Origin: Synechococcus sp. PCC 7336
GTDB taxonomy: Bacteria; Cyanobacteriota; Cyanobacteriia; Thermostichales; PCC-7336
DNA: 64,000 bases
Direction: 5' to 3'
Assembly: GCF_000332275.1 (NCBI RefSeq)
Contig: NZ_CM001776.1
Coordinates: 868,001 to 932,000, forward strand
A model generated the notes under the pieces. The model saw only the letters and a program-made list of their open reading frames with translations. It did no database searches and was not told where the DNA came from. Of this stretch, positions 34,435 to 35,755 are shown piece by piece. How positions within the stretch are numbered: the stretch's first letter is position 1; each line of letters opens with the position of its first letter. The position numbers and the translations under genes are program-made.

Positions 34435-34653
34435 CTTGGAACCCGATCGTCCGATTTAGCCGGATGAGTGCTGCTCCGGCTGTCTGCGAAATGGCCGGAG
34501 CGCTCGTTGGCTCGGACTGGTTTGAAAAAGCTTTCGCGCTACTGTCTTAACATACCGTCACAAGGAGCATCACTGGTTCTCAGAAGCTTTTAAGCTGCGA
34601 TGCAGCCGTATGACTTTGAACGGGAATCAGTTCTCCCCAACCAGACGCAAGTT

Positions 34654-34858
34654 CTGTGACTACTCTCACCGCTAACCCTACGGGTCTAGCGGGAGCTTCT
34701 CAGACTCACGAATGAGAGTTGCTGTTTCACAGGCATCCCAGCGGATAAGCCTCCACAGCCAGAGAGCGGTAGTCCAACCGCCCTGCGTCTAACTATCCTA
34801 TCCCCCTCACCGCCAAACGCTCTGCGTTCTAGCGGGAGTACCCCGGAGGTCATGATGG
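34654..34858 (-). repeat. 205-bp element, copy A (IS200/IS605-like nonautonomous end)
   Basis: This 205-bp unit matches 35150-35354 with four transitions and no indel (98% identity), in the same orientation. Read on the minus strand it has a compensated hairpin near each end. One is around 34810-34836 (CCGC..GCGG with AACGC/GCGTT inside). The other is at 34670-34693, CCGCTA and TAGCGG with CCC/GGG inside, followed by GTGAGAGTAGTCACA. This palindrome-near-end design and the pseudo-coding tail resemble right ends and omega-RNA segments of IS200/IS605 elements. No transposase gene is attached. The family call is inference. Confidence 0.75.
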
Positions 34859-34867
34859 CGACCCAAA

Positions 34868-35077
34868 CTACACTTCCTCGAGCTGGCCGAGACTCAGCCA
34901 TACTGCGGGTGTGGGGACGGAGCCAAATTTCACCAGCGCGTAATCGTCCCGGACGTCCAGCACCTCTCCATCTGTTTCGTAGATGTAGGTGGGCATAAAG
35001 GGGTCGTTAGCTTGGGCCTCTAGGCTGCCCTCGACTTCTTCGGGAATTGCTCGCACCATGGAGCTGCGCTTGATAGC
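34868..35077 (-). CDS. ndhO: NDH-1 complex subunit O
   Basis: NdhO is a small stromal subunit of the cyanobacterial and plastid NDH-1 complex in cyclic electron flow and respiration. From ATG 35077 it is 69 aa. Conserved parts are [11 protein letters not shown], the [20 protein letters not shown] stretch and [14 protein letters not shown]. An in-frame ATG at 35110 would add 11 residues; neither start has a strong ribosome site. The gene sits between two 205-bp repeats, one 9 bp after its stop and one about 70 bp upstream. Confidence 0.92.
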
Positions 35078-35149
35078 CATATTGTGAAGCGTTTGAGCGG
35101 ACTTACTCATCCTAAGAGATGTTTTGTCGCTTGGGGAGTCGGTTGTTGG

Positions 35150-35354
35150 CTGTGACTACTCTCACCGCTAACCCTACGGGTCTAGCGGGAGCTTCTCAGA
35201 CTCACGAATGAGAGTTGCTGTTTCACAGGCATCCCAGCGGATAAGCCTCCACAGCCAGAAAGCGGTAGTCCAGCCGCCCTGCGTTTAACTATCCTATCCC
35301 CCTCACCGCCAAACGCTCTGCGTTCTGGCGGGAGTACCCCGGAGGTCATGATGG
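35150..35354 (-). repeat. 205-bp element, copy B (IS200/IS605-like nonautonomous end)
   Basis: Second copy of the element at 34654-34858, same length and orientation, four base differences. One of the four improves the inner hairpin here (CCGCC/GGCGG fully paired). Both copies share exact outer limits, so the unit is a discrete mobile sequence and not a leftover of chance duplication. It lies upstream of ndhO and could carry or displace its promoter. Confidence 0.75.
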
Positions 35355-35539
35355 AGAACCTGGCGTTAAGACCATTTGGCGAGGACTGCGGCGGTTGCAT
35401 GATATTGCCTCAACCTGGAAATCGATCTGCTCACAACCCTCTGCTAGAGAGGCTCCTGCGACTTGTGGGTAAAGAATAGACCTAAGCCTGGGGGTGACCC
35501 GAAAACTATTTAAACCCCATATTCATATTCAAAAAGCAT

Positions 35540-35755
35540 TTAATTGTACTCTCCAGGAAGATCATTTTTTCTGACAGTAACCCTGCCAACTTTCTTACCT
35601 GACATTCTTAATAATTCATCACCTGAAAATTCAAAACCAAGCTTTAGTGCTATTCGCGCAACATCATCTGCAGTTGATGTTGCGAGTACCTCATTTTTAA
35701 GTGCAGGTTCAGACTGCATTTTCTTTAAAAATGCCTCGAGTTGATCTAAAGCCAT
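35540..35755 (-). CDS. Nif11-like leader-domain protein
   Basis: This 71-aa protein starts MALDQLEAFLKKMQSEPALK and continues TADDVARIALKLGFEFSGDELL, the Nif11-like leader pattern found in many peptide natural-product precursors. The rest (SGKKVGRVTVRKNDLPGEYN) has no Gly-Gly cleavage site and no Cys, Ser or Thr-rich core. AGGAA lies 10 nt before the start. No modification or export enzymes are nearby. It may therefore be a stand-alone Nif11-family protein and not a precursor peptide. Confidence 0.75.
   Translation of the reverse strand: MALDQLEAFLKKMQSEPALKNEVLATSTADDVARIALKLGFEFSGDELLRMSGKKVGRVTVRKNDLPGEYN

Follow-up and report, generated by a model that had tools for sequence, protein, structure and literature searches.

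The ndhO locus and its flanking repeats

The window analysed here, a 64,000-nt stretch of the Synechococcus sp. PCC 7336 genome, contains an intact minus-strand ndhO gene set between two copies of a short repeat (34654-34864 and 35150-35360), which are direct, in one orientation, 97% identical and offset by 496 bp. The ndhO stop codon lies 9 bp from copy 1, and the end of copy 2 is separated from the gene by 71 bp when counted to the homology-consistent start at 35080, or by 41 bp when counted to the ATG at 35110; the spacings of 9 and about 72 bp given in a first-pass annotation of this DNA are confirmed by these measurements. On its other side, copy 2 is adjoined by an ORF for a 71-aa Nif11-like leader peptide (35540-35755, minus strand), a name that was given from sequence alone. 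Loci of the sister family (L111, L115, L117 and L118) have an ftsQ-like gene immediately after ndhO, in contrast to the PCC 7336 locus (L137), where this neighbour is missing. The features of the gene and the repeat pair are as follows, in window coordinates:

34868 to 35110, minus strand: ndhO, intact, likely start codon at 35080 (PF11910, E = 4e-27)
34656 to 34853, minus strand: mobile body of copy 1, a probable PATE, ~198 nt (12-copy alignment and edges)
34854 to 34858, minus strand: CCATC bordering copy 1 on the left, the target and predicted TAM (shared by 14/14 own elements and by 36/36 relatives aligned to the left edge)
34665 to 34695, minus strand: right-end hairpin of copy 1 (ssDNA fold, z = -3.1)
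34806 to 34838, minus strand: left-end hairpin of copy 1 (ssDNA fold, z = -1.5)
35152 to 35349, minus strand: mobile body of copy 2, a probable PATE (12-copy alignment and edges)
35350 to 35354, minus strand: CCATC bordering copy 2 on the left, the target and predicted TAM (same 14/14 own elements and 36/36 relatives)
35161 to 35191, minus strand: right-end hairpin of copy 2 (ssDNA fold, z = -3.1)
35302 to 35334, minus strand: left-end hairpin of copy 2 (ssDNA fold, z = -2.9)

Over the 203-nt aligned unit, copies 1 and 2 show four differences, two private transitions in each, and a 12-copy comparison revealed that both carry C147T, which is found in only one other genomic copy. The annotation had described two same-orientation units of 205 bp, four transitions apart. 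Orientation and transitions hold, but the mobile unit is about 198 nt long (203 nt with its target), with edges formed by CCATC, the insertion target, and TCAC; the two extra bases that give a count of 205 bp are present in the window pair and just two other copies, and are alike by chance. The annotated hairpin near each end of the unit was recovered when the copies were folded as ssDNA: the right-end hairpin has z = -3.1 in both copies, and the left-end hairpin, with z = -2.9 in copy 2, is weakened in copy 1 (z = -1.5) by one C-to-T change at unit position 28. The strand of the right end had likewise been given correctly as minus, with the right edges at 34656 and 35152. GGTA and GAAG, as read from the sequence, occupy equivalent places 5' of the left and right hairpins, and the leading dinucleotide of each could pair with that of CCATC and TCAC, respectively. 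This arrangement resembles that of IS608, in which guide sequences pair with the cleavage sites.

Genomic copies, parent elements and history of the pair

When the 5.07 Mb genome was queried with the 205-bp unit, 12 full copies were recovered that are 97-100% identical to it, which excludes a chance origin of the repeat pair. At two other loci, unit positions 1-136 and 143-205 are split to opposite ends of ~1.8 kb. These full-length elements (G000:C1:160685-162490, L017, and 2103808-2105614, L018; ~1.8 kb each) both encode a 143-aa Y1 transposase, TnpA (PF01797, E = 8e-41), and, divergently, the RNA-guided nuclease TnpB of 416/419 aa (PF01385, E = 2e-22; PF07282, E = 3e-17); in the PDB, TnpA matches IS608 TnpA and TnpB matches ISDra2 TnpB. 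The short unit is composed of a 63-nt left segment, CCATC included, 6 nt that are absent there in the parents, and a 134-nt right segment. Since the two elements with tnpA and tnpB are bounded by identical ends, the 12 copies are non-autonomous derivatives. Counting copies and searching for tnpA or tnpB with matching ends, the check that accompanied the annotation's proposal of non-autonomous IS200/IS605 (PATE-like) elements, thus yielded 12 copies and two autonomous IS605 elements, in agreement with that proposal. Five of the 12 PATEs are identical to the consensus, which indicates that the family is young.

In an oriented alignment, all 14 own elements have CCATC at the left edge and GTCAC at the right edge, and their flanks are unrelated and free of target duplication. 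The parent shows the features of the IS605 group, namely subterminal hairpins and a fixed 4-5 nt 5' target without a terminal inverted repeat, and the short copies show those of palindrome-associated transposable elements (PATEs): they are multi-copy, 198 nt long and too short for a transposase, with near-terminal palindromes and IS605-type ends. Each window unit is very probably a non-autonomous IS200/IS605 PATE with an intact omegaRNA scaffold. The PATE was most probably produced by one internal deletion of a resident IS605 element and later multiplied, and TnpA acting in trans would peel the element out as a single strand and paste it 3' of CCATC; the copy number suggests that the PATEs were mobilised in trans by the parent TnpA. 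At one copy (L008, G000:C1:1116518-1116720), a 404-codon frame spans the insertion site once the element is removed, and could be an interrupted gene or a spurious frame.

CCATC-type IS605 elements of Acaryochloridaceae, Nostoc, Scytonema, Microseira and others share the CCATC/TCAC edges and the right-end fold described below, although their loci, unlike the PATEs, have tnpB. The TnpB proteins of the relatives are 66-74% identical to that of PCC 7336. CCATC followed by variable bases was observed at the left edge of 36 of 36 cyanobacterial relatives with a left end alignable to the edge, and TCAC at the right edge of 40 of 40 aligned at the right end. One copy in genome G005 has CCATG instead, and the target is thus CCATC or CCAT. 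No relative was found in a plasmid collection, and viral contigs contained no exact match to the right end.

Two separate same-strand insertions that left ndhO intact are the simplest and most likely history of the pair. Independent insertions were one of the histories that the annotation had offered; the other was that ndhO had been moved or duplicated together with one copy. Duplication is unsupported, as ndhO is single-copy in the genome, and a move with one copy is the less favoured history. Alternatively, a composite unit of 694 nt, running from the left end of copy 2 to the right end of copy 1, could have brought ndhO as cargo. The strand and order of the copies are as a composite needs, and the sharing of C147T by the window pair and only one other copy would fit it, as would the low chance that, among 14 insertions placed uniformly, a pair lies within 500 bp (p ~0.02, or ~0.11 if only 15% of the genome is tolerant). 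Moreover, ndhO adjoins the ftsQ-like gene in three sister-family genera and does not do so in PCC 7336. However, this neighbour is also absent at 14 outgroup ndhO loci, which makes a departure of ndhO from ftsQ a weak proposition, no scar was seen at ftsQ, and each window copy carries two private changes; we regard transport of ndhO within a composite as unlikely. A simple local duplication of host DNA, which the annotation had held as the alternative if the unit were absent elsewhere, would explain near-identical direct copies at a 496-bp offset, but ten other copies and two parent elements with identical edges lie elsewhere and the flanks are unduplicated, whereas a tandem duplication would run beyond the element edges, and this origin is rejected as exceedingly improbable. 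The pair most likely does nothing for ndhO.

A conserved predicted RNA fold at the right end

Alignment of 46 right-end sequences (own, window and relatives) revealed a conserved fold that consists of an 8-bp hairpin, a longer branched stem, a 4-bp stem and a terminal hairpin. Standard pairs are found in 98.0% of the cells and compensatory changes in 20 of the 32 pairs, and the covariation of 0.389 compares with 0.140 for shuffled and at most 0.085 for slid controls, with all shuffles and slides lower; copy 2 is without one pair of helix 1. Most of the fold is located 5' of the terminal hairpin, in what used to be tnpB coding sequence, and a transposition end alone is therefore insufficient to account for it. 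A covariance model built on this alignment recovered every one of the 14 own loci, with scores of 128-143 bits, and gave one further, weak match, the scores of both window copies and one autonomous copy being partly by construction because these belonged to the training set. The 3' end of tnpB is predicted to encode a structured RNA that ends at the right edge and is conserved by structure.

The reRNA of ISDra2 TnpB is ~150 nt long, with the last ~16 nt derived from the flank (PMC8612924), and reRNAs/omegaRNAs range in size from 79 to 466 nt (PMC10278001). In both position and anatomy, the 130-nt right end fits the scaffold of a TnpB omegaRNA, as predicted from the alignment, and each window copy should encode such a scaffold with its own guide:

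34656 to 34785, minus strand: right end of copy 1, predicted omegaRNA scaffold (covarying fold, 46 sequences; 142.9 bits, training-set member)
34640 to 34655, minus strand: predicted guide of copy 1, 16 nt of flank (from reRNA anatomy, PMC8612924)
35152 to 35281, minus strand: right end of copy 2, predicted omegaRNA scaffold (covarying fold; 138.6 bits, training-set member)
35136 to 35151, minus strand: predicted guide of copy 2, within the ndhO leader (from reRNA anatomy, PMC8612924)

An omegaRNA had been guessed at in the annotation, and the conserved covarying fold predicted across the 46 sequences lends this guess strong structural support. No Rfam family was detected at the window copies, where the sole match (PVT1_3, 15 bits against a cut-off of 45) reflects chance, and promoter-like sites near the copies do not exceed the number expected by chance.

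Whether independently arisen derivatives also retain the scaffold was examined in part in genome G028, where the scaffold model led to 18 loci with differently deleted tnpB remnants, 16 of which keep the full 5' part, a count that is biased because the loci were found via the scaffold. This cyanobacterial genome of 2.9 Mb gave 23 model matches in all. Among the 18 fetched loci (L180-L197), most have varied internal tnpB deletions and some are without any tnpB, which together form a natural series of tnpB-deleted, scaffold-bearing elements. Another genome of 2.6 Mb (G036:C1) contains 22 near-identical, weaker matches of 56-59 bits (for example, 2170438-2170579), two of which were fetched: a distant TnpB (28% identity) accompanies the first, and the second lacks TnpB within 1.7 kb.

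State of the proteins, possible role of the RNAs and comparison with known systems

The HUH motif of TnpA reads RVH in both own full-length copies, with the Y kept, whereas HVH is present in about 30 relatives and HIH in IS608 TnpA. A third, unrelated IS605 element in the genome (G000:C1:1724000-1727600, L206) has RVY, and the HUH motif is thus broken in all three tnpA genes found; the third RuvC motif of the L206 TnpB is degenerate as well (PRDVAS). RVH is damage to an IS605 member and no evidence of another family. A published survey of HUH proteins retained a protein as likely functional only if it carried both motifs (PMC6006769). Judging from the motifs, no fully intact TnpA seems to remain in the genome, and because every TnpA found has a damaged HUH motif, the family probably no longer transposes. 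The two RVH elements differ at 8 of 1800 bases, sit at unrelated sites and share the H-to-R change, and therefore moved recently; either another TnpA mobilised them or the altered motif is tolerated. Where the motif was read in relatives, it is HVH except in two G005 copies (L125 and L132), which have YVH in its place, thus indicating that motif-damaged copies have spread in more than one lineage. The D, E and D motifs of TnpB are kept in both own copies, and the tail of one is frameshifted beyond residue 391.

A minus-strand transcript across the right end could yield an omegaRNA whose last 16-20 nt would be flank, and such an RNA from a PATE could load the TnpB that the two full-length copies supply. 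The complex would cut CCATC plus flank, which is the site without the element, and would thereby favour restoration of the element; the occupied site would be spared, with TCAC rather than CCATC before the guide. For the same reason, TnpB is unlikely to repress ndhO at the ndhO locus. If the RNAs are made, cutting of emptied sites combined with sparing of occupied ones would help the element to persist. We judge the chances to be evenly balanced that PATE RNAs are made and used in trans by TnpB.

It is also quite possible, at somewhat below even chances, that the PATEs are inert fossils with no present role, untranscribed or unused by TnpB, whose fold is left over from the parent. This would be consistent with the broken HUH motif in three of three genomic TnpA genes and the lack of a recognised promoter, and with the G028 series, where two of 18 derivatives lost the scaffold 5' strand and several decayed; retention of the scaffold also counts as one event, since all 12 copies descend from one deletion. 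On the other hand, the whole 130-nt scaffold survived that deletion, far past the ~50-nt hairpin end, the family is young (5/12 copies at consensus) and the TnpB motifs are intact. A doubtful further proposal is that the 12 solo scaffolds act as dispersed trans guides for TnpB, with a dead transposase and selection that keeps TnpB and the guides, not transposition. If true, such selection would mean either element retention or a host-used RNA-guided system. The genome combines 12 guide-only elements with two TnpB genes and lacks an intact TnpA, which provides a clean natural setting for the question of TnpB and non-autonomous RNAs, and poses the question of whether TnpB use alone holds dead elements in place; otherwise, this is ordinary mobile-element biology next to an intact photosynthesis gene.

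As in ISDra2 (PMC8612924), the parent combines a Y1 TnpA with TnpB and a 5' pentamer target (TTGAT there, CCATC here), and the ~150-nt right-end RNA of ISDra2 with its ~16-nt guide has a predicted counterpart here. In contrast to ISDra2, the TAM, RNA and cleavage are predictions in PCC 7336, the TnpA motif is damaged and most copies are without tnpB. PATEs in which the tnpB tail and a complete right end are retained have already been described in Halanaerobium: in the PATE-like element of H. hydrogeniformans (PMC7290912), a left-end hairpin segment is joined to the terminal 58 nt of tnpB and the complete right end, without tnpA, which is the same build as here when compared by description rather than sequence, although it is present in one copy versus 12 and the RNA fold was not tested there. 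Haloquadratum likewise offers a published case of large, homogeneous PATE families that occur alongside broken IS200-type transposases. The PATEs of H. walsbyi (PMC3119063) resemble those of PCC 7336 in their many near-identical copies, near-terminal palindromes and lack of target duplication, and are also core-deletion derivatives of IS605 type, with IS200-type transposases that are broken in one strain; they differ in being archaeal and of other sequence, and were reported without omegaRNA analysis. The points of interest in PCC 7336 are the clear parent, the tested RNA fold and the damaged transposase.
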